NCBI RefSeq assembly: GCF_018729455.1
Contig: NZ_JAHHZF010000005.1
Coordinates: forward strand, 248,001-312,000
Direction of reading: 5' to 3'
Source: Prosthecodimorpha staleyi
GTDB taxonomy: Bacteria > Pseudomonadota > Alphaproteobacteria > Rhizobiales > Ancalomicrobiaceae
DNA: 64,000 nt
The notes under the pieces are model-generated. The model saw only the letters and a list, made by a program, of their open reading frames with translations. It was not told the DNA's origin and did not search any database. Position numbers and translations under genes: made by a program. How positions within the stretch are numbered: position 1 is the stretch's first letter; every line of letters begins with the position of its first letter. Positions 26,372-55,747 of this stretch are shown in pieces.

Positions 26372-26384
26372 TAAAATATTGATT
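26372..26384 (-). promoter_or_regulatory. IHF site of the ahpC promoter
   Basis: On the minus strand AATCAATATTTTA is a perfect match to the IHF consensus WATCAANNNNTTR. It lies 6 bp upstream of the -24 element, nearly the same place as the IHF-like site in the nifB promoter (7 bp). Confidence 0.8.
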
Positions 26385-26429
26385 TCATGATATTTTTCTG
26401 GCACGCCCGGAATTGTCGAATGTCGCCCC

Positions 26430-37666: not shown

Positions 37667-38437
37667 TCAGACCGAGCGCCCGCCGTCGACCTCGATGGTC
37701 GTGCCGGTGACGATGCGGGCGAGGTCGGAGGCGAGATAGAGCACGGCGGCGGCGACATCCTCGGGGCGGACGATCTCGCCCATCGGGATCATCGCCGCGA
37801 AGGACTGTGCGGCCTCCGCCACCGGCTTGCCATGCGTGAAGCCGCTCAGCATCGGCGTCTCGGTGGCGCCCGGATTGACCGCGTTGACGCGGATGCCCTC
37901 CTTGGCCAGTTCGAGCGCCAGCGACTGCGTGACCGCGATCGCCGCCGCCTTGGAGCCGGCATAGGCGGCCAGACCCGGCTTCGGCCGGACGCCGACATTG
38001 GAACAGATGTTGACGATCGAGGCCGCGCCGGCCGCCCGGAGCGCCGGCAGGCAGTGCTTCGCGGTCAGGAACAGCGAACGCACGTTGACCGCCATGATCC
38101 GGTCCCAGGCCTCGGCCTCCATCGCGTCGATCGGCGTGAAGGACTGCGGAATCCCGGCGCAATTGACGAGGATGTGCAGCGGTCCGCCGACCCGGGCGGC
38201 AAGCCGGGCGACGCTCGCCTCGGCGGCGACATCGCAATGCCAGCCCGCCGACCCGTCGATCGCCGCCGGCGCGTCGCTCTCGGGCAGCCCGATATCGGCG
38301 ACGATCACCTCCGCCCCGCTCGCCCGGAACAGGGCCGCGATCGCCCGCCCGATCCCGGAGGCGCCGCCGGTGACGAGGGCGCGCTTGCCGGCGAGGAGCG
38401 TCGGCGTGGCGCCGGTCGGAACGGAGGGCAGAGCCAT
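37667..38437 (-). CDS. SDR family oxidoreductase of the catabolic island
   Basis: This is a 256-residue classical SDR with VTGGASGIGRA (cofactor loop), NCAG, catalytic Ser in ICSNVG and YAGSK. The ATG at 38437 lies 4 bp after the upstream aldehyde dehydrogenase stop, so it is the fourth gene of the aldo/keto reductase-ALDH-ALDH operon. It presumably oxidises or reduces an intermediate of that pathway; the substrate is unknown. Confidence 0.9.
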   Translation of the reverse strand: MALPSVPTGATPTLLAGKRALVTGGASGIGRAIAALFRASGAEVIVADIGLPESDAPAAIDGSAGWHCDVAAEASVARLAARVGGPLHILVNCAGIPQSFTPIDAMEAEAWDRIMAVNVRSLFLTAKHCLPALRAAGAASIVNICSNVGVRPKPGLAAYAGSKAAAIAVTQSLALELAKEGIRVNAVNPGATETPMLSGFTHGKPVAEAAQSFAAMIPMGEIVRPEDVAAAVLYLASDLARIVTGTTIEVDGGRSV

Positions 38438-38441
38438 GGGG

Positions 38442-39923: not shown

Positions 39924-39931
39924 GGCGAACC

Positions 39932-41383: not shown

Positions 41384-41421
41384 GCTCGGTCCTTTGCGGC
41401 CGGTGTCCGGCCGTCGTCCGG

Positions 41422-42387
41422 TCAATCGATGGTGCGTTCGATTTCGTAGTCGGGCCGCGGGGCCAGCGCGGCGATGCGCGCGCGCAGGTCGGGCGTCATG
41501 GCGAATTCGGCCGCGTCGAGATAGTTGCGCATCTCCGCGACCGTCTCCGCCCCGATGATCGGCGTCGTGACGGCCGGATGCGAGCCCGCCCAGGCGACCG
41601 CCAGCATGGCCGGATCGACGCCGATTTCGTCGGCGATCCGGCAGAATTCGGCCGCGATCTCGAAGTTGCGCCGCTCCTCGTAGCGCTTCAGGTAGCGCGG
41701 CTCGGCCAACCGGCCCTGTCGCGCACCGTCCGGATCGGCATTGGCGCGGGTCAGGAGGCCGCTCGCCAGCGGCGAGAAGATCATCACCGCCAGCCCCTTG
41801 GCCTGCGCCAGCGGGAAGAGTTCGTATTCGGCCTGGCGCTTGACCAGGTTGTACATCGGCTGGACGACGTCGAAAGCGACCAGCCCCTCGGCCGCCGAGA
41901 CCCCGAGCGCGTCGGCGATGCGCCAGGCCGACCAGTTCGACACGCCGGCATAAAGGATCTTGCCCTGGCGCCTGAGGTCCTCGAAGGCCCTGAGCGTCTC
42001 CTCGACGCGCGTGAACGGGTCGTAGTGATGGGCGAAATAGACATCGATCCGGTCCGTGCCGAGCCGGCGCAGGCTCGCCTCGACCTCGGCCATGATGTGC
42101 CGGCGCGACAGGCCCGAGCCGTTGGTGTCCTTGGACATCGGCCGGCAGACCTTGGAGGTGATGACGATGTCGTCCCGGTCGGCCTTCATGCAGGCGCCGA
42201 GCAGGCTCTCGGCCCGGCCGCCGCCCGCATAGGAATTGGCGCAATCGAAGAAGTTGATGCCGGCCTCGCGGCAGGCGCCGTAGAGGGCCTGCGCCGTCTC
42301 GGGCGTCGCGTAGGAGCCGAACGACATGGTGCCGAAGCACAGATTGGAGACGCGGGTCCCGGTCCGGCCGAGTTGCACATACTTCAC
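41422..42387 (-). CDS. Aldo/keto reductase
   Basis: This is a 321-residue TIM-barrel oxidoreductase of the type related to potassium-channel beta subunits. The catalytic tetrad is visible: Asp48 and Tyr53 in FFDCANSYAGG, Lys79 in ITSKV and His120 or His121 in YFAHHYDP. It reduces aldehydes or ketones with NADPH. It is the first gene of the AKR-ALDH-ALDH-SDR operon, 120 bp downstream of one of the five shared 22-bp dyads. Confidence 0.93.
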   Translation of the reverse strand: MKYVQLGRTGTRVSNLCFGTMSFGSYATPETAQALYGACREAGINFFDCANSYAGGGRAESLLGACMKADRDDIVITSKVCRPMSKDTNGSGLSRRHIMAEVEASLRRLGTDRIDVYFAHHYDPFTRVEETLRAFEDLRRQGKILYAGVSNWSAWRIADALGVSAAEGLVAFDVVQPMYNLVKRQAEYELFPLAQAKGLAVMIFSPLASGLLTRANADPDGARQGRLAEPRYLKRYEERRNFEIAAEFCRIADEIGVDPAMLAVAWAGSHPAVTTPIIGAETVAEMRNYLDAAEFAMTPDLRARIAALAPRPDYEIERTID

Positions 42388-42506
42388 GCCGACAGTCCTC
42401 CCGGTGCGGTCCGCCCGCCTGCCCGTTCCGGCCGATCCGCCGGCGGGCTTTTCCCGACGGTCGCCCGAAGGCGAGCCGACCGAGGTCTGATGTCACGGCC
42501 GCCTCA

Positions 42507-42528
42507 AAAAGTCAATTTTATAGCTTTT
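42507..42528. promoter_or_regulatory. Island dyad 1, upstream of the aldo/keto reductase operon
   Basis: AAAAGTCA-ATTTTA-TAGCTTTT (8-6-8) is one of five related A/T-rich dyads in the catabolic island. It lies between the GntR/UTRA regulator stop and the operon it is proposed to control. Confidence 0.6.
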
Positions 42529-42546
42529 ACCTTTTTGCAGATCGGC

Positions 42547-43293
42547 TCAGCGCAGCTTGAAGTCGATCCGGACCTTGTCGCCGCGATAGATGCCGTCGGC
42601 GAGCAGCACCAGTTCGCCCTCGGCGTCGACGGCGCAGCGTTCGATCTTGGCGACCGGATGGCTGAGCGGGATGTCGAGCAGGTCGGCGGTGATCAGGTCG
42701 GCGCTGCCGATGGTCAGCGTCTGGGTCGCGTCGGTGATGACGAGGCCGGGCACGTCGGCGACCAGGCGCAGGGCGGTCTTGGCCGAATAGGCCTCCTCCG
42801 GGATCAGCGGGCAGATGCGCTCGGCGACATAGACATCGGCGATCAGGAAGGCCTCGCCGTCGCGGGTGTGCCGGCGGCGCAGGTGGCGGTAGGCCTCGGC
42901 GGGGCGGCCGACCCGACGGCCGGCGGTCGGCAATTGCACGCCGCGCTCGTCGTGCAGAATCTCGATCTTCGCCTTGTCGCGGGCGATCAGCATGCCCTTC
43001 CAGTCGGTCTCGACCTGACACCACAGATCCTGCGACGGCCGCTCGCGCACGAAGGTGCCCTTGGCGCGGAAGCGCTCGATCAGGCCCTCGCTCTCCAGGA
43101 TGTCGAAGGCCTGGCGGATGGTCATGGTCGCGACGCCGCATTCGCGGGCGAGCGATTCCACGGTCGGCACCTGCATGCCGACCGCCCATTCGCCGGTCTC
43201 AATGCGCCGCCGGAACAGGGTCGCGAGCTGGATATAGCGGGACACCGCGCTCTTCTTGAGCGCCTCCGCCGTCGTCTGCCTTCCGCCCGCCAC
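42547..43293 (-). CDS. GntR family regulator, HutC/UTRA subfamily
   Basis: This is a 248-residue protein with an N-terminal winged helix-turn-helix (about 15-80: LFRRRIETGEWAVGMQVPTVESLA, then GVATMTIRQAFDILESEGLIER, read in pieces) and a C-terminal UTRA effector domain. GTG 43293 is the start: a GGAGG ribosome site is 6 bp upstream and the ATG-initiated extension is not protein-like. A dyad matching those of four other operons sits 35 bp upstream. It is the best candidate for the local regulator of the island, acting as a ligand-released repressor. The effector is unknown. Confidence 0.9.
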   Translation of the reverse strand: MAGGRQTTAEALKKSAVSRYIQLATLFRRRIETGEWAVGMQVPTVESLARECGVATMTIRQAFDILESEGLIERFRAKGTFVRERPSQDLWCQVETDWKGMLIARDKAKIEILHDERGVQLPTAGRRVGRPAEAYRHLRRRHTRDGEAFLIADVYVAERICPLIPEEAYSAKTALRLVADVPGLVITDATQTLTIGSADLITADLLDIPLSHPVAKIERCAVDAEGELVLLADGIYRGDKVRIDFKLR

Positions 43294-43327
43294 CTCTGGC
43301 CTCCTCCCGCCGACCCGCCCCCCGGGC

Positions 43328-43349
43328 TTATGTCGATGATATAGATTAT
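43328..43349. promoter_or_regulatory. Island dyad 2, upstream of the GntR/UTRA regulator
   Basis: TTATGTCG-ATGATA-TAGATTAT (8-6-8) is the weakest of the five dyads but keeps the ATnATA-TAG centre. It is placed 35 bp before the regulator start, as expected for autoregulation. Confidence 0.45.
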
Positions 43350-43391
43350 GGGTGAATGACGTCTGCCACCATCCCGTGCCGGATCGACCTC

Positions 43392-44048
43392 TCAGCCGGC
43401 CGGCAGTGCCGGCAGCGGCGTCAGCCGTCCGGGCTCCTCGACCCGGCCTGCGACCAGTTCGACGCCGAGACCCGCCGGCAGCGGAATCCGGTGCACGTTC
43501 AGCGTCAGCGCCACCATGCAGTAGTAGCCGACCAGCGCGGTCAGTTCGACCACCCCGCCCTCGCCCCAGCGCGCCAGCACCGCCTGATACGCCGCTTCGC
43601 CGACATCGCCGCCGGTCAGCATGTCGCGGACGAAATCGTAGACCTCCCGATCGGCCGGATCGGCGAATGCGGGCGCCGCGCCGTCGCGGATGGCCTCGAT
43701 CGTCGCGACCTCCAGCCCGGCCGCCTCGGCGGCCCTGCGATGGACGCCCCATTCGAGTTCGCTGTTCCAGACCCGCGCGGTCATCAGCACGGCCAGTTCG
43801 CTGAGCCGGGTCGGCAGCCGGGTGCGGTAGCGCAGCGTCTCGCCCAACTGGCTCCAGCGCTCGGCCAGTTCGGGATTGTGCAAGGCCGCGCGCAGGGGCC
43901 CGACCAGCTCGCCGCGCCGGCCGTTGATGATCGCATCGCGCACGCGCTTCTGCTCGGCGCTCATGCCGTCGGCATCGGGCAGCGAGATGCGCGCGCCGGT
44001 GCGTGGTGCCGCGATGGGCGTGCGGCCGGCCGACGGCGTCGCGGTCAT
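43392..44048 (-). CDS. Carboxymuconolactone decarboxylase (CMD) family protein
   Basis: This is a 218-residue protein with the CMD/AhpD-like helical fold (LSELAVLMTARVWNSELEW, then EWGVHRRAAEAAGL, and VVELTALVGYYCMV). It lacks the CxxC redox motif of AhpD, so peroxidase activity is unlikely. Members include decarboxylases of aromatic ring-cleavage pathways, but many are uncharacterised. It is the last gene of the enoyl-CoA hydratase operon and overlaps the CoA-transferase gene by 4 bp. Confidence 0.85.
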   Translation of the reverse strand: MTATPSAGRTPIAAPRTGARISLPDADGMSAEQKRVRDAIINGRRGELVGPLRAALHNPELAERWSQLGETLRYRTRLPTRLSELAVLMTARVWNSELEWGVHRRAAEAAGLEVATIEAIRDGAAPAFADPADREVYDFVRDMLTGGDVGEAAYQAVLARWGEGGVVELTALVGYYCMVALTLNVHRIPLPAGLGVELVAGRVEEPGRLTPLPALPAG

Positions 44049-45241
44049 CGGGCCACCTCGCCGGCGAGGCCGAGTTCGGCCAGGATCTCGGCGGTGTGCT
44101 CACCGAGAAGCGGCGGCGCGCGCTCGAAGGCGAGCGGCGCGTTGGCGAAGCGCATCGGGCTGACCACCTGCTTGACGGTGCCGGCGAGCGGGTGCGGCAG
44201 CTCGCGCAGCATCTCGCGATGCTGGATCTGGGCCTCCTCGAACACCCTCGGCACGGTGTTGATCGGCCCGCACGGCACCTGGGCGGCGCCGAGTGCGGCG
44301 AGCCAGTGGTCGAGCGGCTGGGTCAGGAAGCGTTCGCAAATCAGCGGATGCAGGATTTCGAGATGGGTCACGCGCGCCGCGTTGGTGGCGAAGCGCGCGT
44401 CGCCCGCCCATTCGGGGCAGCCGAGCACCTCGGCGAAACGGCGGAACTGCTCGTCATTGCCGACCGCCAGCACCAGATGACCGTCGGCGACCGCAAACAC
44501 GTCCTGCGGCTGGATGTTCGGATGCCGGTTGCCGCGCCGGATCGGCGCCTTGCCGGAGACCAGATAGTTCATCGCCTGGTTGGCCAGCATGGCGACAGAG
44601 ACATCCAGCATGGCGATGTCGACGAAATCGCCCTCCCCGGTCTCCGCCCGCCGCGCCAGGGCGGCCAGCACCGCGACGGTCGCGTACATGCCGGTCATGA
44701 TGTCGACGATCGGCACGCCGACCTTCTGCGGCCCGCCGCCGGGAAGATCGTCCCGCTCGCCGGTGACGCTCATCAGGCCGCCCATGGCCTGGATCATGAA
44801 GTCGTAGGCGACCTCGCTCTTGCGCGGGCCGGTCGTGCCGAAGCCGGTGATCGAGCAATAGATCAGGCGCGGGTTGACGGCCTTCAGGTCGTCGTAGCCG
44901 AGCCCGTAGCGGGCGAGCGTGCCGACCTTGAAATTCTCCAAGACGATGTCGGCCGTTCGCGCGAGCGCGACCACGACATCGCGGCCTTCCGGCGTCGCGA
45001 TGTCGACCTCGACCGAGCGCTTGCCGCGGTTGACCGAGAGATAGTAGCCGGATTCCTGCGTGCGGCTGCCGTCGGCGGCGGCCAGATAGGGCGGCCCCCA
45101 GCGACGCGTGTCGTCGCCCTCCCCGAGCCGTTCGACCTTGATCACGTCGGCGCCGAGATCGGCGAGAATCTGGCCCGACCAGGGGCCGGCCATGATGCGG
45201 CTGAGATCCAGCACGCGGATATGCGAGAGCGGTCCGGCCAA
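44045..45241 (-). CDS. CaiB/BaiF family (class III) CoA-transferase
   Basis: This is a 398-residue class III CoA-transferase. Typical segments are LDLSRIMAGPWSGQILADLGADVIKVE (in pieces), SVNRGKRSVEVD, the conserved VDIMTGMYA with the probable catalytic Asp, and GNRHPNIQPQDVF. It transfers CoA from a donor thioester such as succinyl-CoA to a carboxylic acid, activating the island's substrate for further degradation. It lies in one operon with enoyl-CoA hydratase, two hydrolase-type genes and a CMD protein. The acid is unknown. Confidence 0.93.
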   Translation of the reverse strand: MAGPLSHIRVLDLSRIMAGPWSGQILADLGADVIKVERLGEGDDTRRWGPPYLAAADGSRTQESGYYLSVNRGKRSVEVDIATPEGRDVVVALARTADIVLENFKVGTLARYGLGYDDLKAVNPRLIYCSITGFGTTGPRKSEVAYDFMIQAMGGLMSVTGERDDLPGGGPQKVGVPIVDIMTGMYATVAVLAALARRAETGEGDFVDIAMLDVSVAMLANQAMNYLVSGKAPIRRGNRHPNIQPQDVFAVADGHLVLAVGNDEQFRRFAEVLGCPEWAGDARFATNAARVTHLEILHPLICERFLTQPLDHWLAALGAAQVPCGPINTVPRVFEEAQIQHREMLRELPHPLAGTVKQVVSPMRFANAPLAFERAPPLLGEHTAEILAELGLAGEVAR

Positions 45242-45244
45242 GCC

Positions 45245-45910
45245 TCAGCCTCCCCCAAACACGAGGTCCATGACGGGTCCTTCGTCGGACCCGATGTCGT
45301 CCTGAACGGCCGTCGCCACGAGCGAGGGCCGCGTTGCCTGCGTCTCGGCCCAGGCCGCGAGGTGCGGATGGGCCGGCCGCCAGCCGCTGGCGCGGTAGCG
45401 GAAATCGAGTTGGCCGAGCGCGCACAGGATGGCGATCTGGCCGAGCCCGAAGGGTGCGGCCGCAAGCGCCGCCGCTTGCCCTTCGAGCGCCGCAAGCGTC
45501 GCCACCACCTTGGCGCGATAGCTCGCCATGGTGCCGGGATCGCCGCCGGAGACGCCCATGCGCTCGATTCGCCAGAGCAGCAGGTTGTCGGTCAGGCCGT
45601 CGCCGAGCGCCTGCCAGCGCAATTGCGTCAGCCGCGCCTCGCCGGACGCCGGCAATATCTTTTCGCCGTCCGGCACCAGCGCGATCAGCGCCTCGGCGAT
45701 GACGCGCGAATCGTAGAGCGGCGGCAGGCTGTCGCGCAGCAGCACGGGGATCTTGCCGAGCGGGTTCTCCGCCGCGATGACCGGATTGGGCGCGCCGCGC
45801 GGCACCGCGACGGCGCGCACGCATTCGATTCGGTCCTGAAGACCGAGTTCATGCACCAGGATCATCACCTTGCGCACGAACGGCGAGCGCGGCGACCAGA
45901 GCAGCCTCAT
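45245..45910 (-). CDS. Glutathione S-transferase family protein
   Basis: This is a 221-residue two-domain GST. The thioredoxin-like N-terminal half contains MRLLWSPRSPFVRKV and the glutathione-binding IPVLLRDSLPPLYDSRVIAE segment; the C-terminal half is helical. It starts overlapping the upstream alpha/beta hydrolase gene by 4 bp and ends 3 bp before the CoA-transferase. It may conjugate glutathione to, or isomerise, a pathway intermediate. Confidence 0.88.
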   Translation of the reverse strand: MRLLWSPRSPFVRKVMILVHELGLQDRIECVRAVAVPRGAPNPVIAAENPLGKIPVLLRDSLPPLYDSRVIAEALIALVPDGEKILPASGEARLTQLRWQALGDGLTDNLLLWRIERMGVSGGDPGTMASYRAKVVATLAALEGQAAALAAAPFGLGQIAILCALGQLDFRYRASGWRPAHPHLAAWAETQATRPSLVATAVQDDIGSDEGPVMDLVFGGG

Positions 45911-46728
45911 CGCCGGCCCTCCCCGCCCATCAGACGGCCAGGTGCGCCACCGTCGCGCTCCCAGGCGTCGAGCGCATCCGCGATCGCGGCCAGGAAGGCC
46001 TCCGGCCGCTCGAACACCGGAACATGACCGGCATCGGGGATCGCGGCGAACCGGGCCTGCGGGATCGCGGCCGCCATGGTCCGCATGGTGTCCGGCATGG
46101 CGCCGTCCTCGGCGCCGGCGACCAGAAGGGTCGGCACGGCGATCCGGCCGAGCACCGCACTCTCGTCGTAGCGCTGCAGCGCGGAGGCGGCGGCGACGAA
46201 GCCCTCGAGCGGGGTCGCCCCCACCATGGCACGCAGCCGTTCGGCCATCGGCGTGCCGAGCCGTTCGGGCCTCAGCCAGCGCCGCACCGTCGCCTCGGCG
46301 AGCCCGGCCATGCCCTCGGCGCGAGCGAGCGCGATCCGTTCCTGCCAGAAGGTCTGGCCGGTCGGTGCGCTCTTCGCCTGGCCATCGACCAGGATCAGGC
46401 CACCGAAGCGGCCGGGCGCGCGCGCCAGGGCGGCAAGCCCGGTAGGCACGCCCATGGAGAGGCCGACATAGAGGCAGCGGTCGATATCGGCCGCATCGAG
46501 GACTTCGATCAGATCGGCACCGAGTTCGGCCATGGCGAGCGGATGCGACGGCACCGGCGACCGGCCATGGCCGCGCTGGTCATAGCGCAGGAGGTTGAAG
46601 CGGCGGCCGAGCGGGCGGGCGACCTCGTCCCAGAGCGACAGATCGGTCAGCAGCGAGTTGCCGAACACGATCCAGGGCGCGCCGTCGCCGGCCCGCTCGA
46701 TCTCCAGATGGAGGCCCATGGCTTTCAT
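45907..46728 (-). CDS. Alpha/beta hydrolase, 3-oxoadipate enol-lactonase-like
   Basis: This is a 273-residue alpha/beta hydrolase with the nucleophile elbow GLSMG (Ser), catalytic Asp in GAEDGAMP and His in DAGHVPVFE. The N-terminal IVFGNSLLTDLSLWDEVARPL stretch (in pieces) and FNLLRYDQRGHGRS resemble PcaD enol-lactonases. It hydrolyses an ester, lactone or related bond in the pathway; the precise reaction is inferred. It lies 2 bp after enoyl-CoA hydratase. Confidence 0.87.
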   Translation of the reverse strand: MKAMGLHLEIERAGDGAPWIVFGNSLLTDLSLWDEVARPLGRRFNLLRYDQRGHGRSPVPSHPLAMAELGADLIEVLDAADIDRCLYVGLSMGVPTGLAALARAPGRFGGLILVDGQAKSAPTGQTFWQERIALARAEGMAGLAEATVRRWLRPERLGTPMAERLRAMVGATPLEGFVAAASALQRYDESAVLGRIAVPTLLVAGAEDGAMPDTMRTMAAAIPQARFAAIPDAGHVPVFERPEAFLAAIADALDAWERDGGAPGRLMGGEGRR

Positions 46729-46730
46729 GG

Positions 46731-47492
46731 TCAGCGGCCGACGAAGACGGGCGGGCGCTTCTCGACGACCGCCCGGGTCGCCTCGCGGGCGTCCTCGGTG
46801 GTCATCAGGCGGGTCGAGAAGGACTGCTCCAGCTCGTAGCCGTCCTCGGTCTGCATGAACTCGACGCGGTTCAGCGCCTCCTTGGCCATGCGCAGGCCGA
46901 TCGGCGCCTTGGCGGCGATGACGGCGGCCATGGCCTGCGCGGTCGGCGCCAGTTCGGCGAAGGGCACTACCTCCTGCACGAAGCCGACGCGCCAGGCCTC
47001 GCGGGCGTCGATCGGCTGGCCGGTGAAATACATCCGGCGCAGCAGGCCCTGCGGCAGGTGGCGGGTCATATGGGCGGCCCCGCCGCAGCGGCCGACATTG
47101 ATCTCCGGCATGCCGAAGCGGGCATGCTCGGCCGCGATGCGGATATCGGCCACCGAGGCGTAGACGCAGCCCGCCCCGAAGGCCGGGCCATTGACGGCGG
47201 CGATGACCGGCACCGGCGCATGACGCACCGCCGCGAAGGACCGGCGCACGATCGCCGCCCGCTTCGGGTCGTCCTGGATGGTGGCGGCCAGGAATTCGTT
47301 GAGGTCGAGGCCGGCGCAGAAGGCCTTCTCGCCCGCCCCGGTGAACACGATCACGTTCACGTCGTCCCAGGCCTTGGCGGCCTCGAAGGTCTCGGCGATC
47401 TCGCCATAGAGCGCCAGCGTCAGCGCATTGACCGGCGGGCGGTCGATGGTCACCGTCGCGATGGCGTTCTGCTTCTCGATCTTCAACGTCAT
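46731..47492 (-). CDS. Enoyl-CoA hydratase/isomerase family protein
   Basis: This is a 253-residue crotonase-fold protein. The oxyanion-hole segments are AFCAGLDLNEF and AVNGPAFGAGC, and the active-site region has the usual AARFGMPEINVGRCGGA form with Glu. It hydrates or isomerises an acyl-CoA formed by the CoA-transferase. It is the first gene of the five-gene ECH operon, downstream of one of the 22-bp dyads. Confidence 0.92.
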   Translation of the reverse strand: MTLKIEKQNAIATVTIDRPPVNALTLALYGEIAETFEAAKAWDDVNVIVFTGAGEKAFCAGLDLNEFLAATIQDDPKRAAIVRRSFAAVRHAPVPVIAAVNGPAFGAGCVYASVADIRIAAEHARFGMPEINVGRCGGAAHMTRHLPQGLLRRMYFTGQPIDAREAWRVGFVQEVVPFAELAPTAQAMAAVIAAKAPIGLRMAKEALNRVEFMQTEDGYELEQSFSTRLMTTEDAREATRAVVEKRPPVFVGR

Positions 47493-47836
47493 GCCGTTCC
47501 TCCCGCCCGAGTCCGGCCCATCCGATTCGCGACCGCCGAAGCGACGACGACCCGCCCGGCGCGGACCCGGGGTCCGTCCGTACCGCGTCCTCGCCGAGCC
47601 GATCCCGGAACCGGTGTGCCCGCCGCCCCGTCCCGCGCAGGGAACGCCTGGATCGAAATCCGGAGCGGCTTGTTAAATGATAAAGCTAGTTTTATGTATT
47701 TTCTCGATCCCGGGCTTGTCAATCGCCGCCCGGCCCGGGCAGGTCCGGCCGGGACGGTTCGCCCGTTCGCGATCACCCGCCCGCCGCGCCGCCTCCCAGC
47801 CCTGATCGGCGCCCGCCACCCAGAGGAACCCGCCCC
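47493..47836. other. Divergent promoter region of the enoyl-CoA hydratase operon and an alpha/beta hydrolase
   Basis: This is a 344-bp non-coding stretch between two divergent genes. It contains a local A/T-rich island around 47670-47705 holding dyad 3, flanked by GC-rich sequence in which I see nothing else. Confidence 0.6.
47681..47702. promoter_or_regulatory. Island dyad 3, between divergent hydratase and hydrolase genes
   Basis: TAAAGCTA-GTTTTA-TGTATTTT (8-6-8) is related to the other island dyads. Its position allows control of both the leftward hydratase operon and the rightward alpha/beta hydrolase. Confidence 0.5.
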
Positions 47837-48649
47837 GTGTCCCCAGCCGAGACCGATGCCGCCGCCCTTCGCCTGATCGACCGCCCCGGCGGTATCCGCA
47901 TCGGCTACCGGGTTGCGGGCGACGGCCCGCTGGTGGTCCTGATCGCCTCGACGGGACGCTGCGCGGCCGAACTCCGGCCGCTCGCCGAGGCGCTGAACCG
48001 CCATGGCTTCCGCGTCGCCCGCCCCGAGCCGCGCGGCATCGCGCCCTCGGCCGGGCCGATGACCGGCGTCACCTTCCATGATTTCGCCGCCGACTTCGCC
48101 GCCGTGATCGAGGCCGAGCGCGCCGCCGGTCAAGGCCGGCCCGCGATCATCGCCGGCCACGCCTACGGCACCTGGATCGCGCGCACGCTTGCGACCGACC
48201 GGCCGGATCTGATCGACGGGGTCGTGCTGCTCGCCTCTGGGGCGCGCGCCTGGCCGGCGCATCTCTCCGCTGCGATCACGGCCATCAACGATCCCGCCAC
48301 CGCGCCGCAAGACCGGCTCGCCGCGCTGCGCCTCGGCTTCTTCGCGGAGGGCAACGACGCCACCGAATGGCTCGAAGGCTGGCATCCGGCGGTGGTCGCC
48401 AGCCAGCGCGCCGCCCGCGCGGCGACCGTGCAGGCGGACTGGTGGCCGACCGGCGTGGCGCCGATCCTCGACCTGATGGGCGGCGCCGATCCGTTCCGCC
48501 CGGCCGGTTCCGAACGCGAGCTCGTGGACGAATTCGGCCCCCGCGTCACGGCCGCGGCGATCGCCGGGGCGAGCCACGCCATGCCGGCCGAGAAGCCGGT
48601 CGAGGCCGCCGCCGCGATCGCCGCCTGGTGGCGCGACCTTCATCCCTGA
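47837..48649 (+). CDS. Alpha/beta hydrolase
   Basis: This is a 270-residue alpha/beta hydrolase beginning with GTG (47837), with an AGAGGA ribosome site 9 bp upstream. The nucleophile position reads GHAYG rather than GxSxG, so Ser is replaced by Ala in the elbow. The acid region is LMGGADPFRP and the His is in AGASHAMPAEKP. Without the serine it may be non-hydrolytic or use another mechanism. It is convergent with livF and divergent from the hydratase operon. Confidence 0.85.
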   Translation: MSPAETDAAALRLIDRPGGIRIGYRVAGDGPLVVLIASTGRCAAELRPLAEALNRHGFRVARPEPRGIAPSAGPMTGVTFHDFAADFAAVIEAERAAGQGRPAIIAGHAYGTWIARTLATDRPDLIDGVVLLASGARAWPAHLSAAITAINDPATAPQDRLAALRLGFFAEGNDATEWLEGWHPAVVASQRAARAATVQADWWPTGVAPILDLMGGADPFRPAGSERELVDEFGPRVTAAAIAGASHAMPAEKPVEAAAAIAAWWRDLHP

Positions 48650-48675
48650 CCGGGGGACCGGCCGCCGACGCGCCA

Positions 48676-49380
48676 TCAGCTGACCTCCAGCCAGGCGCGC
48701 CGGATCTCGTCGTCGGCCTGGAAGGCCTCGACCGATCCGGAGAAGACGATCTCGCCGCGGCCCATCACGAAGACCCGGTCGGTCAGGCGCATGACCATGG
48801 CGAGCTTCTGTTCGAGCAGCAGGATGGCGAGGCCGCGCCGCTTCATCTCCAGGATCGTCTCGGCCAGCGCCTCGACCACCTTCGGGGCCAGGCCCTCGGT
48901 CGGCTCGTCGATCAGGATCACGTCCGGATTGCCGAGCACCGAGCGGAACAGGGTCAGCATCTGCTGCTCGCCGCCCGACAGGAACCCGGCCTTGACGTTG
49001 CGCCGCTCGCGCAGGCGCGGAAACACGTCGTAGAGCTCGTCGAGCGTCCAGGACGGCTTGCCGGACCGGCCCGCCTTCATGCCGAGGATCATGTTCTCCT
49101 CGACCGAAAGATTGCGGAAAATCTGGCGATCCTCCGGCACATAGGCGATGCCGGCCCGGGCGACCTCGTGGGCCGGCAGGCCGGCGAGATCGCGGCCACC
49201 GATGCGGACAGCGCCGCGGCTCGGCGGCAGAAGTCCCATCACGGCCTTGCAGGTCGACGAGCGGCCGGAGCCGTTTCGGCCGAGGATGGTTGCGATGGTG
49301 GCGTCCGGAACCTGGAAGGTGACCCCGTTCAGCACCTTCACATGGCCGTAGGCGGCATGCAGGTTGGCGACGTCCAGCAT
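48676..49380 (-). CDS. livF: Branched-chain-amino-acid-type ABC transporter ATP-binding protein (LivF)
   Basis: This is a 234-residue ATPase of the HAAT family with signature LSGGEQQML and Walker B VILIDEPTEGL. Walker A reads GRNGSGRSST, with Arg where the catalytic Lys normally stands. The switch His is not obvious; the segment reads LLEQKL. It partners LivG to power uptake through LivHM. The ATG overlaps the livG stop (ATGA). The ligand is probably an organic acid or amide of the island rather than leucine. Confidence 0.93.
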   Translation of the reverse strand: MLDVANLHAAYGHVKVLNGVTFQVPDATIATILGRNGSGRSSTCKAVMGLLPPSRGAVRIGGRDLAGLPAHEVARAGIAYVPEDRQIFRNLSVEENMILGMKAGRSGKPSWTLDELYDVFPRLRERRNVKAGFLSGGEQQMLTLFRSVLGNPDVILIDEPTEGLAPKVVEALAETILEMKRRGLAILLLEQKLAMVMRLTDRVFVMGRGEIVFSGSVEAFQADDEIRRAWLEVS

Positions 49381-50132
49381 CAGTGCTCCCCATCGCCCAG
49401 ATAGGCTTCGCGCACGCGCGGATCGGACCGGATCTCGGCCGGCGTCCCGGTCACCAGGATGCGGCCGTTGACCAGCACCGAGACGCGGTCGGCGAGCGTG
49501 AAGACCACGTCCATGTCGTGCTCGACCATCACCAGCGTGCGGCCCTCGGTCATGCGGCGGATGAATTCGATGATGTGCCGGGTCTCCTCGCGCGACATGC
49601 CGGCGGTCGGCTCGTCGAGCAGGATGACCGAGGCGCCGGTGCCGACCGTCATGCAGATCTCGACCGCGCGCTGCTCCGAATAGGCGAGATCGGCAGCGCG
49701 CTTTTCGGCCTGCGCGGCAAGGTTGGCGCCCGCGATCAGCCGGTCGGTCTCCTCGGCGATGCGTGCCCAGACCGGGCCGATGCGCATCAGGCTCCAGCGC
49801 TTGCCGAACCGGCCCATCACGGCGAGCAGGATGTTCTCGCGGACCGTCAGCCGGTCGAAGACATGGGTGATCTGGAACGAGCGGCCGAGCCCGGCGCGGT
49901 TCAGGGCATGCGGCACCAGTCCGCCGATCGACGTGCCGTTGAGGGCGATCACCCCGGAGGTCGGCGCGAAGGCACCCGAGATCAGGTTGAACAGCGTCGA
50001 CTTGCCGGCGCCGTTCGGGCCGATCAGGGCGTGGCGTTCGCCCTGCCGGATATCGAGGTCGATCGCCTCCAGGACGCGCACCACGCCGAAGGTCTTGGCG
50101 ACGCCCTCGAGCTTCAGGGTGTTGGCGTTCAC
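49380..50132 (-). CDS. livG: Branched-chain-amino-acid-type ABC transporter ATP-binding protein (LivG)
   Basis: This is a 250-residue ATPase with canonical Walker A GPNGAGKSTLFN, the family segment LGRSFQITHVFDRLTV and Walker B VILLDEPTAGM. The C-terminus is the LivG-type extension ending in VREAYLG. It overlaps both neighbours by 1-4 bp within the operon. In contrast to LivF its nucleotide site looks fully normal. Confidence 0.94.
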   Translation of the reverse strand: MNANTLKLEGVAKTFGVVRVLEAIDLDIRQGERHALIGPNGAGKSTLFNLISGAFAPTSGVIALNGTSIGGLVPHALNRAGLGRSFQITHVFDRLTVRENILLAVMGRFGKRWSLMRIGPVWARIAEETDRLIAGANLAAQAEKRAADLAYSEQRAVEICMTVGTGASVILLDEPTAGMSREETRHIIEFIRRMTEGRTLVMVEHDMDVVFTLADRVSVLVNGRILVTGTPAEIRSDPRVREAYLGDGEH

Positions 50133-51409
50133 GGGCTCTCTCCGGGACGGGTTTGTTCGGCGCGGGGGCCGGGGCGGCCGGCGAAGAGGTGCGGCAGAAC
50201 CGGCCGGCCGGCGCCGAGGGCAAGGCGGCTACCGCCGACGAGCGCGACGAGGCCGACCAGCCAGGGCCACGGCGTCAGCGGAGCGAACGGCACCGCGAAG
50301 ATGCGGACCGGCGGCCAGACGCCCTTCAGCGACGCGATTTCGGCGCGATAGGCCTCCGAGCAGACGGTGCCGGTCAGCTCGATCAGTAGAACCAGTCCGG
50401 CCATCGCCATCACGGCGCCGGCGAGACCGGCGAGATCGCCGAGGCCGATGAGCGGCCCGGTGCCGTCGCGCACGCGGCGCCAACGCGCCAGGATCGCGCC
50501 GCCGATGCCCTCGGGGGCGAACAGCACCGTGACGACGAAGACGACGCCCAGATAGAAGGGCCAGAAATGCGACAGGCTCGAGCCGAAATAGGCGAAACTG
50601 GTGGTCAATGCCGCGCCGATCACCGGCCCGAGGAACACCCCGGCACCGCCGATCACGGTGTTGAGCACCACGAAGGCCGATCCGGCGCCGCCGAACAGCA
50701 CCATGCTGGCGGATTCGTCGGAGATCGCCAGGAGCCCGCCGGCCAGTCCCGACACCGCCGCCGACAGCGCGAAGACAACGGTCTTGACCCGATGCGCGTC
50801 GTAGCCGAGGAAGCGGATGCGCAGTTCCCGCTCGCGGATGCCGCGCACGACCAGCCCGAACGGGCTGCGCTGCAGGCCGTAGAGGGCGAGGAGCACGACC
50901 AGCGTCCAGGCCAGCGTCAGGTAGTAGACCGAACCGGTCGACTGGAAATCGAGCGGACCCCAGTTGGTGCGAATCGAGCGGATGCCGGCCTCGCCGCCGA
51001 ACAGGCCCTCCCATTTCTGCGCCAGCGCGCTGACCAGTTCGGCGATCGCCACCGTGATCATGGCGAAGTAGACGCCCGACCGGACGGTCGCGAACCAGCC
51101 GGCGACCAGCCCGAACAGGAACCCGGCGCCGGCGCCGACCAGCGGCAGCAGGGGCGTCGGGAAGCTTCCGCCGCGGTCGATCGCATCCATCATGTAGATG
51201 GTCGCGAAGGTGCCGACGCCGTAATAGGCGGCGTGGCCGAAGGACGGCAGACCGGCCTGGCCCCAGAGCAGGTTGAAGCCGAGCGCGAACACCGCCGCGA
51301 TCATGATCTTGTTGGCGAGGTTGAGCGTGGCGAGCCCGCCCAAGGCCGGCAGGGCGACGAGCGCCGCGGCGGCGGCGAGGCCGAGAAGGACGAGGACGAT
51401 CCTGGACAT
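50129..51409 (-). CDS. livM: Branched-chain-amino-acid-type ABC transporter permease (LivM)
   Basis: This is a 426-residue membrane permease with about ten helices and the LivM motif around NLLWGQAGLPSFGHAAYYGVGTF, the permease coupling region with GIRERELRIRFLGYDAHRVK, and GGAGVFLGPVIGAAL. A C-terminal extension of roughly 100 residues is longer than usual for LivM and contains two more hydrophobic segments. It overlaps livG by 4 bp. Confidence 0.92.
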   Translation of the reverse strand: MSRIVLVLLGLAAAAALVALPALGGLATLNLANKIMIAAVFALGFNLLWGQAGLPSFGHAAYYGVGTFATIYMMDAIDRGGSFPTPLLPLVGAGAGFLFGLVAGWFATVRSGVYFAMITVAIAELVSALAQKWEGLFGGEAGIRSIRTNWGPLDFQSTGSVYYLTLAWTLVVLLALYGLQRSPFGLVVRGIRERELRIRFLGYDAHRVKTVVFALSAAVSGLAGGLLAISDESASMVLFGGAGSAFVVLNTVIGGAGVFLGPVIGAALTTSFAYFGSSLSHFWPFYLGVVFVVTVLFAPEGIGGAILARWRRVRDGTGPLIGLGDLAGLAGAVMAMAGLVLLIELTGTVCSEAYRAEIASLKGVWPPVRIFAVPFAPLTPWPWLVGLVALVGGSRLALGAGRPVLPHLFAGRPGPRAEQTRPGESP

Positions 51410-51413
51410 GGGG

Positions 51414-52355
51414 TCAGACCCGCTCGTCGCCGGCGATGCCCTGGGGCCGGATCATCAGGACCAGGAGCATGAGCAGGAAGGGGAGGACGCCGGCCGTGTT
51501 GGCGATCGGCACGTTGAGCAGCGTGCGGGCGGTCTCCGCCGAGACGACGCCGATCTTGGCGAGGAGGTCGCCGAAGGTGGTGTCGACATAGACGACCGCA
51601 TTGACCAGCACGCCGATGATCAGCGAGGCGATCAGCGCGCCGGAGAGCGAGCCGAGACCGCCGACGACCACGACCACGAAGACGATGACACCGAGTTCCG
51701 TCGCCATGTTCGGATTGGTCGTGTAGTAGGCGCCGCCCATCGCGCCGGCGAGCCCGGCAAGACCCGCGCCGACCGCGAACATGCCGGAGAAGATCGCCGA
51801 GACATTGTAACCGAGAGCACGCACCATGTCGGGATTGAGCACGGCGGCGCGCACCACAAGACCGATCCGGGTGAAGCGCAGCAGGCAGAAGATGGCCGCG
51901 AACATCGCGATGGCGGTCGCCCCGATCAGCACTCGGAAGAAGGGATACTGCACGGCGCCGATCGAGAAGGCGGCGAAGCGCAGGCTCTCCGGCACCGGAT
52001 AGGAGACTGCATAGGGACCGAAGAACACCTTGACCAGTTCCTCGAAGGCGAAGGACAGGCCGAAGGTCAGGAGCAGTTCCTGGACATGGCCGTGCCGGCG
52101 GACATGGCGCAGCAGCGTGCGCTCGCAGATGAGCCCGATCAGCGCGACGCCGAGCGTGCCGATGACGATCCCGCCCCAGAAGCCGAAGATTCGGGTCGCC
52201 GCGAAGGCCAGATAGGCGCCGAGCATGTAGAAGGAGGCATGGGCGAAGTTGAGGATGCCCATCATCCCGAAGATCAGCGTCAGGCCGGAGCTGATCATGA
52301 ACAGCAGCAGCCCGTAGATCAGCCCGTTGAGCAGGGCGACGACGATGGTATCCAT
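51414..52355 (-). CDS. livH: Branched-chain-amino-acid-type ABC transporter permease (LivH)
   Basis: This is a 313-residue permease with about eight helices and the LivH motifs GLIYGLLLFMISSGLTLIFGMMGILNFAHASFYMLGAY (in pieces) and GGLGSLSGALI. It forms the channel with LivM. It follows the binding-protein gene by 132 bp and is 4 bp from livM. Confidence 0.93.
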   Translation of the reverse strand: MDTIVVALLNGLIYGLLLFMISSGLTLIFGMMGILNFAHASFYMLGAYLAFAATRIFGFWGGIVIGTLGVALIGLICERTLLRHVRRHGHVQELLLTFGLSFAFEELVKVFFGPYAVSYPVPESLRFAAFSIGAVQYPFFRVLIGATAIAMFAAIFCLLRFTRIGLVVRAAVLNPDMVRALGYNVSAIFSGMFAVGAGLAGLAGAMGGAYYTTNPNMATELGVIVFVVVVVGGLGSLSGALIASLIIGVLVNAVVYVDTTFGDLLAKIGVVSAETARTLLNVPIANTAGVLPFLLMLLVLMIRPQGIAGDERV

Positions 52356-52487
52356 GCACTCCGGCTCCGGCGCGTCGGGCGCAGGCCCGAACGGGACGAC
52401 CCGACAGGATCGAAGGGGATCAAGCGGCGAGCCGGCGGCCGGCGCCCTGCGGGCGAGGCCCCGGCCTCGTCGGGATGGCGGGTCCGA

Positions 52488-53726
52488 TCAGTTGCGGACC
52501 ATCTTGCAGTCCGGATTGACCGGCGTGGAGGCCTCTTCGGCGCTCAGCAGCTTGACCGGCTTGAAGCCCATGTCGGTGCCGTCGAGCTTGCGGGCGGCGT
52601 CCTTCGAGACCACCGAGACGACCAGCGGCAATTGCAGCTGATGGTCGTCGGCGCGCATGGACAGATCGCCGAGCGGCCAGGGCGTCTTGGTCGTCTCCAT
52701 GGCGGTGATCAGCGCCTTGATCGGCAGCTTCGGTGCGGCCGGAACCTGCTTCATGGCATGGGTCAGCATGGTCAGGGTGATCAGGCTGTTGCTCATGAAG
52801 GCGACCGGATCGCGTCCGGTGGCGGCATTGAAGGCGGCCCGATAGGCCTCGCCCTTCTCGCCGCCCGCCTGGGCGTTGAAGATCTGGGCCGTGAAGTTGC
52901 CGAGCGCGGCCGGGCCGGCGGCGGCGAGGTTGCCGGGCTCGTCCAGGAACATGCCGGCAAACTTGGCCGGCAGACCGGCCGAGGAGGCCGCCTGCAGGAT
53001 CAGCTGCAGGTCGCTGCCGCCATTGGCGGTGAAGATGGTCTCCGGCGCGCCCGCGCGGGCCTTCTCGATGAAGGACGAGAAGTCCTTGATCTTGAACACG
53101 TCGTGGCGCGCGGTGCCGACCACCTCGTAGCCATAGGTCTTGGCGTTGGCGACGGTCGCCGCCTCCATGTCGCGGCCCATCGTGTAGTCGGGCTGCAGCG
53201 AATAGACCTTCTGGCCGAGCGCGCCGGTCTCCTTCATCACCTTGGCGAGGGCGTTCTGGCGGATATAGGGCGTCGTGGTGAAGCGGAAGGAATAGTAGCT
53301 GCAATCCGCGCCGGTGAAGTTCACGCCCTCGGCGCCGACGATCAGCAGGATCGCCGGATCGTCCGGGTTGCGCTGGTTCCAGCGCTTGATGTCGGCGAGA
53401 TTCTGCGCAGCGAGCGGCGAAGTGCCGGCGCCGATGATGATGCGCGCGCCGTCGGCGACGGCCTGCTTGAAGCGGTCCGCCGCGCCCTGGGTCGTGCCCT
53501 GGTCGTCATAGACGGAGACTTCCACCGGATTGCCGTTCCAGCCACCCGCGGCGTTGAACGGCTTGACGATGAAATCGATGGTCGGATCGTACATGGCGCC
53601 GATGAAGGCCATCGACCCGGTCTTCGGCGTCAGATAGGCGACCTTGACCGGTTCGGCCGCAGCGGCGGCGGCACCGAGCGCCAGGGCCGGGATGGCGGCG
53701 GCGACAAGCTTGAGCACGGGATGCAT
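52488..53726 (-). CDS. ABC transporter substrate-binding protein, LivK/Peripla_BP_6 family
   Basis: This is a 412-residue periplasmic binding protein with a Sec signal (VLKLVAAAIPALALGAAAAAA) and type I periplasmic fold: VKVAYLTPKTGSMAFIGAMYDP, VSVYDDQGTTQGAADRF and GAGTSPLAAQNLADI. It carries Cys pairs (FTGADCSYY and NPDCKMV) typical of HAAT receptors. Relatives bind branched-chain amino acids, amides, urea or aromatic acids. ATG 53726 has a GGAGGA ribosome site. A remarkable stem-loop lies in the leader and an island dyad is further upstream. Confidence 0.93.
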   Translation of the reverse strand: MHPVLKLVAAAIPALALGAAAAAAEPVKVAYLTPKTGSMAFIGAMYDPTIDFIVKPFNAAGGWNGNPVEVSVYDDQGTTQGAADRFKQAVADGARIIIGAGTSPLAAQNLADIKRWNQRNPDDPAILLIVGAEGVNFTGADCSYYSFRFTTTPYIRQNALAKVMKETGALGQKVYSLQPDYTMGRDMEAATVANAKTYGYEVVGTARHDVFKIKDFSSFIEKARAGAPETIFTANGGSDLQLILQAASSAGLPAKFAGMFLDEPGNLAAAGPAALGNFTAQIFNAQAGGEKGEAYRAAFNAATGRDPVAFMSNSLITLTMLTHAMKQVPAAPKLPIKALITAMETTKTPWPLGDLSMRADDHQLQLPLVVSVVSKDAARKLDGTDMGFKPVKLLSAEEASTPVNPDCKMVRN

Positions 53727-53743
53727 CCGTTTCCTCCGACATG

Positions 53744-53792
53744 AGGCAAGTCCCGGTCGGAGCGCGCCGCTCCGACCGGCGGGGACTTGCCT
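53744..53792 (-). promoter_or_regulatory. Long stem-loop in the leader of the Liv operon
   Basis: An 11-bp outer stem AGGCAAGTCCC / GGGACTTGCCT and a 9-bp inner stem GGTCGGAGC / GCTCCGACC are perfect, joined by a one-sided 4-nt bulge around a 5-nt loop. It ends about 7 nt before the ribosome site of the binding-protein gene. There is no U-tract. Confidence 0.7.
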
Positions 53793-53952
53793 TGAGACAG
53801 TGATGGGAGCTGCCGACGAGTCCGAAGGATCGCAGCCCGCTCCGGGATCCGGGCTTCTGGGGGCCCGGTTCGGCGCTCCGTCCGCTCGCGCGGCCGGACT
53901 GGGGATCGGCCCTGAGGCCGAACGACCGGCGCAGGCTAGGCGGCGATCCGGT

Positions 53953-53974
53953 AAAAGTCAATAATATGACTTTT
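53953..53974. promoter_or_regulatory. Island dyad 4, upstream of the Liv operon
   Basis: AAAAGTCA-ATAATA-TGACTTTT has perfect 8-bp arms and is the best of the five dyads. It lies 17 bp past the GST gene end and 227 bp before the binding-protein ATG. Confidence 0.65.
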
Positions 53975-53991
53975 CGATTTAATGGGCTTTT

Positions 53992-54576
53992 TCACAGCAT
54001 CGGCTCGAAGGCCGGCAGGGCCCGGATGCGGGCAATCCAGCGCCCCACGGCCGCATACGGATCGAGGGCGACGCGGGCTTCTGGTGCCAGCGCGACATAG
54101 GGAAAGCAGGCGATGTCGGCGACGGTCGGGCGGGTGCCGACGAGCCAGTCGCGCGCGGACAGCCAGGTCTCCAGGATCGCCAGCGCCCGCCGGGCCTCTG
54201 CTTGCGCCGCGACGATATCGATCGGCGTGCCGATCAGGAAATGCAGCCGCGCCGCCTGCAGGCCGACCGCGATCTCCTTGGCCGCAAAGGCGAGCCATTG
54301 GGTGACCTCGCCGAGGCCGCGCGGATCCGTCGGCAGCCAGTCGGGTGCATGGCGGGCGGCGAGATAGACCAGGATGGCCTGGCTGTCGAACAGCACGGTC
54401 TCGCCGTCGACCAGCACCGGGATCTGCCCGCGCGGATTGAGCACCAGGAAGTCGGACGCCTTGTGCGCCCGGACCGCCACGTCGACGGTGATCCGTTCGG
54501 CCGCGAGGCCGGCGAGCGCCAGGAACAGGCGCACCTTGTAGCCGTTGCCGGAGACCGGATGGTCGTAGAGCTTCAT
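53992..54576 (-). CDS. Glutathione S-transferase family protein
   Basis: This is a 194-residue GST. The N-terminal thioredoxin-like domain has KLYDHPVSGNGYKVRL and the glutathione-binding GQIPVLVDGETVLFDSQAI; the C-terminal domain holds DWLVGTRPTVADIACFPY with the conserved Asp cap. The ATG overlaps the upstream alcohol dehydrogenase stop (ATGA), so the two form one operon. Conjugation or isomerisation of an aldehyde product is a reasonable guess. Confidence 0.9.
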   Translation of the reverse strand: MKLYDHPVSGNGYKVRLFLALAGLAAERITVDVAVRAHKASDFLVLNPRGQIPVLVDGETVLFDSQAILVYLAARHAPDWLPTDPRGLGEVTQWLAFAAKEIAVGLQAARLHFLIGTPIDIVAAQAEARRALAILETWLSARDWLVGTRPTVADIACFPYVALAPEARVALDPYAAVGRWIARIRALPAFEPML

Positions 54577-55709
54577 GGGTCCGCCATGCGCAGGATCGGT
54601 TTCACGACCTGCCCCGATGCGGCCGCGGCGAATGCCGCCTCGATCTCGTCGAAGGGGAAGAAGCGGACCAGGCGATCGAAGGGAAAGCGGCCCTGCCGCC
54701 AAAGTTCGATCAGGCGCGGGATGAACACCGGCGGGTTGCTGTCGCCCTGGATCACGCCGCGCAGGGTCCGACCGTAGAGCAGCGTCGCCGCGGGAATCGC
54801 GATGTCGCCGGTGCCGGCGGCCGCGCCGGTCACCGCCGCGGTGCCGCCCATGCGCAGCGCCTCCAGCGCGAGCCGCACGGTTGCGGCGCTGCCGACGCAT
54901 TCGACCGCGCCGTCGACGCCGCCGCGCCCGGCGATGGCGCGGATCTCGTCGAGCGCCCCCGCCCCGGCCGTGACGGCATGGCTGGCGCCGAGGTCGAGCG
55001 CGAGGTCGAGCCGCCCGGCATCGCGGTCGACCGCCAGGATCGGATAGGCGCCCGCGGCCTTGGCGGCCATCACGGCGGCGAGCCCGACGGCACCGGCCCC
55101 GATCACCGCCAGCGCGCTGCCCGGCGCCGGCTTCAGGACATTGAGAATCGCCCCGGCACCGGTCTGGAAGCCGCAGCCGAGCGGCCCCATCAGTTCGACC
55201 GGCACGTCCGCCGGCAGTTTGACGAGGGCGCGCGCGGCGACCACGACCCGCTCGGCGAAGGAGGACTGGCCGAAGAAGGCCGCCGCCACCGCGGTGCCGT
55301 CGCAGCGGAACACCGGGCTCGTGCCGTCGGCGCGGCCGCCGGAGAAATTGAGCCGCCGCTTGTCCTCGCAATAGGCCGAGCGCGCGTCCAGGCAGTTCGG
55401 GCAGGTGCCGCAGCTGCGATAGGTGACGACGACCGGATCGCCGGGTGCGAATCCGGCCACCGCCGCGCCGACCGCCTCGACGATGCCGCTGCCCTCATGG
55501 CCGAACACAGCCGGGCGCCGATAGGGCAGCCGGCCGTCGCGGGCCAGGATGTCGGTATGGCAGAGGCCGGTGGCCACGATCCGGACCAGGACCTCGTCGG
55601 CCCGCGGCGCTTCGAGCCGGACGGGTTCGATCCGGACCGATTCGCCCGCTTCGCCGAAAATCGCCGCCCTCGCCTCGAACACCCGCGCCTCCCTGGCCCG
55701 TTCGATCAC
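54573..55709 (-). CDS. Zinc-dependent alcohol dehydrogenase, aryl-alcohol type
   Basis: This is a 378-residue medium-chain dehydrogenase. Catalytic zinc residues are in GLCHTD and FGHEGSG, the structural zinc in CGTCPNCLDARSAYC, and the cofactor loop is IGAGAVGLAA. The segment MGPLGCGFQTGAGAILNVLKP and the preceding FFGQSSFAE are characteristic of aryl- or benzyl-alcohol dehydrogenases such as XylB. It oxidises an alcohol to the aldehyde that the island's ALDHs could take further. A dyad of the island regulon lies 17 bp upstream of the ATG. Confidence 0.93.
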   Translation of the reverse strand: MIERAREARVFEARAAIFGEAGESVRIEPVRLEAPRADEVLVRIVATGLCHTDILARDGRLPYRRPAVFGHEGSGIVEAVGAAVAGFAPGDPVVVTYRSCGTCPNCLDARSAYCEDKRRLNFSGGRADGTSPVFRCDGTAVAAAFFGQSSFAERVVVAARALVKLPADVPVELMGPLGCGFQTGAGAILNVLKPAPGSALAVIGAGAVGLAAVMAAKAAGAYPILAVDRDAGRLDLALDLGASHAVTAGAGALDEIRAIAGRGGVDGAVECVGSAATVRLALEALRMGGTAAVTGAAAGTGDIAIPAATLLYGRTLRGVIQGDSNPPVFIPRLIELWRQGRFPFDRLVRFFPFDEIEAAFAAAASGQVVKPILRMADP

Positions 55710-55725
55710 TAGCGGCTGACCGCAA

Positions 55726-55747
55726 TTAAATCAATCATATAGCTTAT
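55726..55747. promoter_or_regulatory. Island dyad 5, upstream of the alcohol dehydrogenase-GST operon
   Basis: TTAAATCA-ATCATA-TAGCTTAT (8-6-8) shares the ATnATA-TAGCTT half with dyad 1. It lies 17 bp before the dehydrogenase ATG, positioned to block initiation. Confidence 0.55.

Follow-up and report, generated by a model that had tools for sequence, protein, structure and literature searches.

In the HutC subfamily of GntR-type transcription regulators, the operators compiled by Suvorova et al. 2015 (PMC4494728, used here in excerpt) have NyGTMTAKACNy as their consensus; in most of them 4 nt separate GT from AC, with exceptions that include SdhR. The same excerpts describe the sites of the YtrA subfamily as wider than HutC-subfamily sites and the YtrA proteins as having short C-terminal domains. 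In NagR, also called YvoA, of Bacillus subtilis, the half-sites lie at -7 to -4, six nucleotides apart, and Arg38 and Arg48 touch G-5 and G-4 (PMC4333415, in excerpt). A tetrameric GntR regulator (PMC7797058, in excerpt) has a short palindrome of the usual kind and is not used in the reading given here. The present locus lies in a 64,000-nucleotide stretch of the Prosthecodimorpha staleyi genome (contig NZ_JAHHZF010000005.1, positions 248,001 to 312,000, forward strand), which as a whole is called the window. It has five related 22-bp sites in an island of uptake and catabolic genes, and the gene of a GntR/UTRA protein lies among them.

The best reading of this arrangement is a putative autoregulated repressor of an island for uptake and CoA-dependent catabolism. 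With a probability of about 0.84, the GntR/UTRA protein, whose gene lies among the five sites, would use them as its operators and act as a local repressor of the island.

Five sites with one motif

The five 22-bp sequences are found in the window exactly where the original prediction had placed them (42507, 43328, 47681, 53953 and 55726). The sites and their proposed binder are:

42507..42528, minus strand: operator 1, AAAAGTCAATTTTATAGCTTTT, upstream of genes for an aldo-keto reductase (AKR), two aldehyde dehydrogenases (ALDH) and a short-chain dehydrogenase/reductase (SDR), with a TTGACT arm (42515-42510) towards the AKR gene
43328..43349, minus strand: operator 2, weak, candidate for autoregulation, in the gap that separates the CMD and regulator genes
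47681..47702, no strand: operator 3, in the gap from which the enoyl-CoA hydratase (ECH) operon and an alpha/beta hydrolase gene diverge, overlapping a possible ECH -10 box (47699-47694)
53953..53974, minus strand: operator 4, upstream of the Liv operon, with TTGACT in the arm (53961-53956) and TAGCCT 17 nt downstream (53938-53933)
55726..55747, minus strand: operator 5, upstream of genes for an alcohol dehydrogenase (ADH) and a glutathione S-transferase (GST), with TTGATT in the arm (55734-55729)
42547..43293, minus strand: regulator of 248 amino acids with a GntR helix-turn-helix (HTH) and a UTRA domain, the proposed binder; recognition-helix residue 38 is T56

Symmetry is uneven among the sites: complementary arm pairs number eight out of eight at 53953, six at 42507, four each at 47681 and 55726 and only two at 43328, and the three centre pairs contribute no complementarity at any of the five. 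It is more apt to call the sites instances of a single motif than five good dyads.

The five sites are real, far beyond chance. In leave-one-out scoring, four of them come out on top of all window positions not used in training, and 43328 comes second, behind an overlapping register of site 47681. An independent palindromic motif was derived de novo from the intergenic DNA of relatives' loci with no window sequence included; its 12 training loci, three from the first homologue search and nine around other regulators, all lie outside the genus. Gene calls for this training came from a simple codon-bias heuristic, through which the sites of two loci (L027 and L028) escaped the de novo search. 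The motif scores 278.4, against 184.2-200.0 in eight dinucleotide shuffles that had fewer seeds than the real set. Scanned over the window, it puts the five claimed sites at ranks 1-5 (29.1, 28.7, 23.3, 22.9 and 12.7); the fifth, 43328, barely exceeds the next match, an overlapping register of 47681 (12.5), which is followed by one of 42507 (12.3) and by position 26374 (9.9).

The match at 26374-26395 is an A/T-rich near-dyad, AAATATTGATTTCATGATATTT, the top score beyond the five sites and their overlaps. It has no GTCA half-site and may belong to another regulator.

Over the whole genome (6.19 Mb), the refined pattern WWARGYYADWNNWHTRRCYTWW, composed after inspection of the window and the relatives' sites, matches with at most two mismatches in four places, all of them claimed sites; the backwards-read control gives 38. 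A narrower pattern taken from the window sites, WWAWGTCRATNWTATRGCTTWT, likewise matches four places at up to three mismatches, all claimed, with one control match. A sequence model was built from sites scoring at least 16 that lie outside the genus at loci whose regulators have no Arg at HTH position 38 (the non-Arg loci); 17 of these 25 sites were used, and the eight excluded mostly have no mapped gene start nearby. At E<=10 the model recovers four of the five sites in the window and nothing else, and in the whole genome only 42507 (E 0.22) and 53953 (E 1.09). With these patterns and the model, no equally good match occurs elsewhere in the genome at the thresholds used, and the regulon appears local to the island. 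Site 43328 itself has three mismatches to the refined pattern.

The regulator and its homologues

Both domains of the regulator are recognised by their profiles, the GntR winged HTH by PF00392 (57.6 bits, cut-off 27, E 9.9e-16) and the UTRA domain, residues 133-242, by PF07702 (62.1 bits, cut-off 23.8, E 6.4e-17), which by architecture places the protein in the HutC subfamily of the GntR superfamily. It falls under the cut-off of all 20 NCBIfam families that it matches; against the HutC equivalog TIGR02018 it reaches 85.7 bits where the cut-off is 220. The description 'HutC-type' therefore holds for the domain architecture and fails for the equivalog score and for the operator consensus. The best solved-structure matches are YvoA/NagR, aligned over the full length (residues 13-241, E 2.1e-11), and DasR, both deposited as repressors. 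The protein is very probably the binder of the five sites, as its homologues elsewhere suggest.

The first search gave regulator loci in four other organisms: Prosthecomicrobium hirschii, Rhizobiales bacterium 62-17, Mesorhizobium zhangyense and Pelagibacterium luteolum. At E<=1e-60, homologues are present in 10 of 397 genomes of the order, the own and P. hirschii genomes counted, and 12 stretches were fetched, three from P. hirschii and nine around other regulators. Sixteen further homologues came from the families of genomes G289 (4 of 87 genomes) and G301 (14 of 248), two being already known; the family of G297 has the regulator in 4 of 12 genomes, none new, and a class-wide sample in 1 of 385, the own genome alone.

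At a score of at least 16, one or more sites are present in all 30 regulator loci and in 3 of 30 reversed-sequence controls. The 16 held-out loci, which include near copies (L085 and L086) of a training locus (L023) and a 4.4-kb contig (L090), agree: 16 of 16 have a site, against 1 of 16 controls (34 sites against 1). Reversed sequence of equal composition gives 3 matches against 70 real ones at score 16, and none against 60 at 18; lowering the threshold to 13 raises the reversed controls to 11 of 30 loci.

Homology mapping took in the 64 sites scoring at least 16, and none of them lies inside a homology-mapped gene, a result that holds for the query-like genes which the mapping covered. A mapped gene start follows downstream within 450 bp at 53 of them. 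The commonest mapped targets are TctC-type receptors (16), the regulator itself (12, site 43328 of the window being weak), CoA transferase (10) and GST (6). In being symmetric and in preceding local genes for uptake and catabolism, the sites agree with HutC-subfamily operators. Perfect matches to the pattern occur in 6 of the 10 regulator genomes, the own counted, against 23 of 387 others; in these 23, at one 2-3 kb locus each, no regulator or CoA transferase lies within about 1.5 kb. A genome of the same genus (G013) has neither the regulator at E<=1e-20 nor a perfect match.

Conservation extends to single sites of the window. Operator 4 is identical in the P. hirschii locus L020. The AKR gene is preceded by a site also in L021 (P. 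hirschii), L006 and L007, and the gap between the CMD and GntR genes holds sites in L021 and L006 and a lower-scoring one in L007; for this gap in L008, no site is listed.

In L006, from a relative with 81% identity, an AMP-binding enzyme gene stands between the regulator and the AKR unit (10946-12808), and the operator is kept with the AKR gene, not with the 3' end of the regulator gene. In the leader that runs from operator 1 to the AKR gene, CGCCTTCGG occurs five times in P. hirschii (L021, 10765-11030) and once in the window (42387-42507); the P. hirschii copies are a short repeat expansion between operator and gene. Genome G297 has two regulator copies, L024 and L025 (62% and 59% identical to the query), with a strong site beside the L025 regulator and a weak one beside that of L024.

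Residue 38 and base -8

HTH position 38, the equivalent of Arg48 in NagR, is Thr, Ala or Ser in 10 of the 30 regulators, including that of the window, and Arg in 20. The base at -8 differs accordingly: G in 55 of 82 half-sites of Arg38 regulators, against 4 of 82 for the Thr/Ala/Ser regulators (78 of 82 non-G). For this count the sites were chosen with motif columns 4 and 19 masked, and the half-site set took in those scoring 13 or more. When each of the eleven half-site columns is masked in turn, a strong shift appears at -8 only (total variation 0.62; next 0.26). Counted by locus, G has the majority in 10 of the 19 Arg loci and another 8 are tied, against a G majority in none of the 10 non-Arg loci. 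To judge from these sequences, the regulator and its DNA signal seem to have evolved in step.

Local GC content does not account for the shift: it ranges over 0.59-0.70 in non-Arg loci and 0.55-0.73 in Arg loci, the A-type window lies at 0.69, and in L030, with a GC content of 0.55, half of the half-sites carry G.

Proposed repression and its alternatives

In the proposed mechanism, a dimer of the regulator would bind WWA(A/G)G(T/C)(C/T)A-6 nt-T(A/G)(A/G)C(C/T)TWW over or beside the promoters that serve uptake (the Liv unit) and catabolism, with weaker binding at that of its own gene. The bound dimer would block transcription, and a pathway intermediate or CoA-ester in the UTRA domain would release it from the DNA. 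Direct binding, repression over activation, the inducer and the substrate are what we infer here. By eye, the Liv and ADH units have an arm with TTGACT or TTGATT, followed 17 nt downstream by TAGCCT or TAGTGA, and at the ECH unit the dyad lies over ATACAT (47699-47694), 17 nt past a TTGACA. These placements suit steric repression.

The same regulator might instead bind the sites as an activator or a dual regulator, which we consider unlikely. If TTGACT/TAGCCT is the Liv promoter, the dyad centre falls near -38, a position also used by class II activators; the promoter calls behind this placement are weak, however, the dyad would overlie the candidate ECH -10 box, which suits repression, and the closest structures, YvoA/NagR and DasR, are those of deposited repressors. 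That another DNA-binding protein occupies the dyads, such as a global regulator or the product of a nearby reading frame at ~36.1-36.9 kb, is highly improbable. The frame, which we take to be FadR-like, yields a 218-amino-acid piece that matched no Pfam family; its gene was recovered in P. hirschii but, outside the genus, in none of 12 loci, while the UTRA regulator has sites beside it in all 30 of its loci. A global regulator would give sites elsewhere, and the genome has none at up to two mismatches. The operator does differ from the published HutC-subfamily consensus as excerpted (PMC4494728), which speaks for a different binder, but the sole strongly shifting base column goes with the recognition helix of the UTRA regulator.

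There is hardly any chance that the sites are mere A/T-rich promoter boxes (-10/-35) in GC-rich DNA. Among the sites with TTGA on one side only, the TTGA arm points towards the nearest mapped gene in 16 of 18, so that a portion of the motif may also serve as a -35 box. As a full account, promoters alone are rejected: a consensus scan finds none at the sites, the conserved G and C positions are symmetric about the centre, no sites occur elsewhere in the genome at the thresholds used, and reversed sequence gives few matches.

Several observations weigh against autoregulated repression through these operators, or against parts of it. Site 43328, on which autoregulation depends, is the weakest of the five, with a motif score of 12.7 and three mismatches to the refined pattern, and it is missed by the sequence model in the window scan at E<=10; of the predicted autoregulation there remains a candidate site in the gap before the gene. 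Eleven of the 64 sites lack a mapped gene start over the next 450 bp, 5 of the 43 matches listed are, by the heuristic gene calls, within open reading frames (one being the unrelated 26374), and 4 of the 10 regulator genomes are without a perfect match. The centred canonical HutC-subfamily core is present in none of the 64 sites. None of the five sites has a sigma-70-like promoter in the consensus scan, so that the -35 and -10 boxes are placed by eye. As to the co-change, the sixteen further homologues came from a wide search for independent changes of residue 38, but the ten non-Arg regulators form one clade (100/99) and thus reflect a single evolutionary event, for which reason the Fisher value of 5.6e-18 is not usable as a probability. 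Ten alignment columns, not just 38 and 39, separate the Arg and non-Arg clades, those in the recognition helix being T56 and M57; only the 10 Arg loci noted above, among 19 with 8 ties, are mainly G; and a threshold of 13 lets in false sites (unmasked, 81 real against 13 control).

Set against these points, the predicted control of all five units by the GntR/UTRA protein is well supported by sequence comparison, through the presence of sites in all 30 homologue loci, their absence from mapped genes (0 of 64) and the co-variation of residue and base. For the island, repression by this protein would name a regulator, an operator and a likely regulon of five units, and inducer and pathway would be searchable through one reporter.

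Genes of the island

The transcription units around the sites are:

37667..42387, minus strand: unit 1, AKR (41422-42387, PF00248), ALDH (~39932-41386), ALDH (38442-39923) and SDR (~37667-38440)
43392..47492, minus strand: unit 2, ECH, PcaD-like hydrolase, GST, class III CoA-transferase-like protein and CMD-family protein, by profile matches except the CoA transferase
47837..48649, plus strand: divergent alpha/beta hydrolase, by family match
48676..53726, minus strand: unit 3, Liv-type ABC importer with substrate-binding protein (PF13458), LivH, LivM, LivG and LivF
53992..55682, minus strand: unit 4, zinc ADH (by family match) and GST

The second ALDH of unit 1 is named from NCBIfam matches under the cut-off. 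The first ALDH and the SDR of this unit, the CoA transferase of unit 2, the Liv proteins other than the substrate-binding protein and the GST of unit 4 are presumably what their names say. The order of unit 1 is kept in L021, L006 and L007; the alpha/beta hydrolase is in the same place in L021 and L007 and was not found in L006. For the ADH, a start at GTG 55682 is more likely than at the first GTG, 55709, because the latter would overlap the candidate -10 box; GGGAGG at 55693-55688 precedes 55682.

Clusters in relatives add an AMP-binding enzyme, a FadJ-type hydratase-dehydrogenase, a thiolase, acyl-CoA dehydrogenases, an amidohydrolase and a TctC receptor (ten proteins scanned). The encoded functions suggest that the island serves to take up a carboxylic or aromatic acid and to degrade it in a CoA-dependent pathway. 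In the open-licence PMC literature, no description of such a gene cluster or of the regulon was found.

Comparison with known operators

New in this system are the class of operator and the way in which it changes along with the recognition helix. The co-change makes a small natural experiment on repressor and site, with one recognition-helix residue, one operator base and thirty loci.

As with NagR/YvoA of B. subtilis, palindrome-like operators stand before uptake and catabolic genes, and the NagR recognition half-sites at -7 to -4 coincide with the G(T/C)(C/T)A of the present motif (PMC4333415, in excerpt). Unlike in NagR, the equivalents of Arg38 and Arg48 are Glu and Thr, and the co-varying base is -8. 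The operators of the HutC-subfamily compilation are alike in being palindromic, with single sites common to divergent genes, and Arg-G is their most frequent predicted contact, in the excerpts of PMC4494728. The palindrome that defines them, with GT and AC 4 nt apart, is not the form found here: at any position this spacing occurs in 3 of 64 sites, and GT and AC stand 10 nt apart at -7/+7 in 8 of 64. A reading as canonical dimers that overlap at a 4-bp offset was set aside on the column counts, the partner position -1 not being conserved as C.

Residue 38 is paired with -8 instead of -4, and the contacts would therefore be shifted outwards by ~4 bp per half-site; we infer a similar outward shift for YtrA from the column numbers in the excerpts of PMC4494728. 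At roughly even odds, this clade of UTRA regulators reads ~4 bp farther out than NagR-type regulators, with a YtrA-like wide operator on a HutC-type body, and one Arg-to-Thr change switched AAAGG to AAAAG with the regulon kept. If the wide spacing is true, these operators form an exception class to the HutC-subfamily rule of GT-4 nt-AC, and domain swaps could then test how operator spacing is chosen in the GntR superfamily. The SdhR palindrome, as quoted in PMC4494728, also has GT and AC 10 nt apart by our own count, SdhR being likened to the present system by description. With those of the YtrA subfamily and SdhR, the present sites have in common a longer palindrome whose conserved pairs lie well away from its centre (PMC4494728, in excerpt); the regulator itself differs from the YtrA proteins, which have a short C-terminal domain where it carries a UTRA domain.

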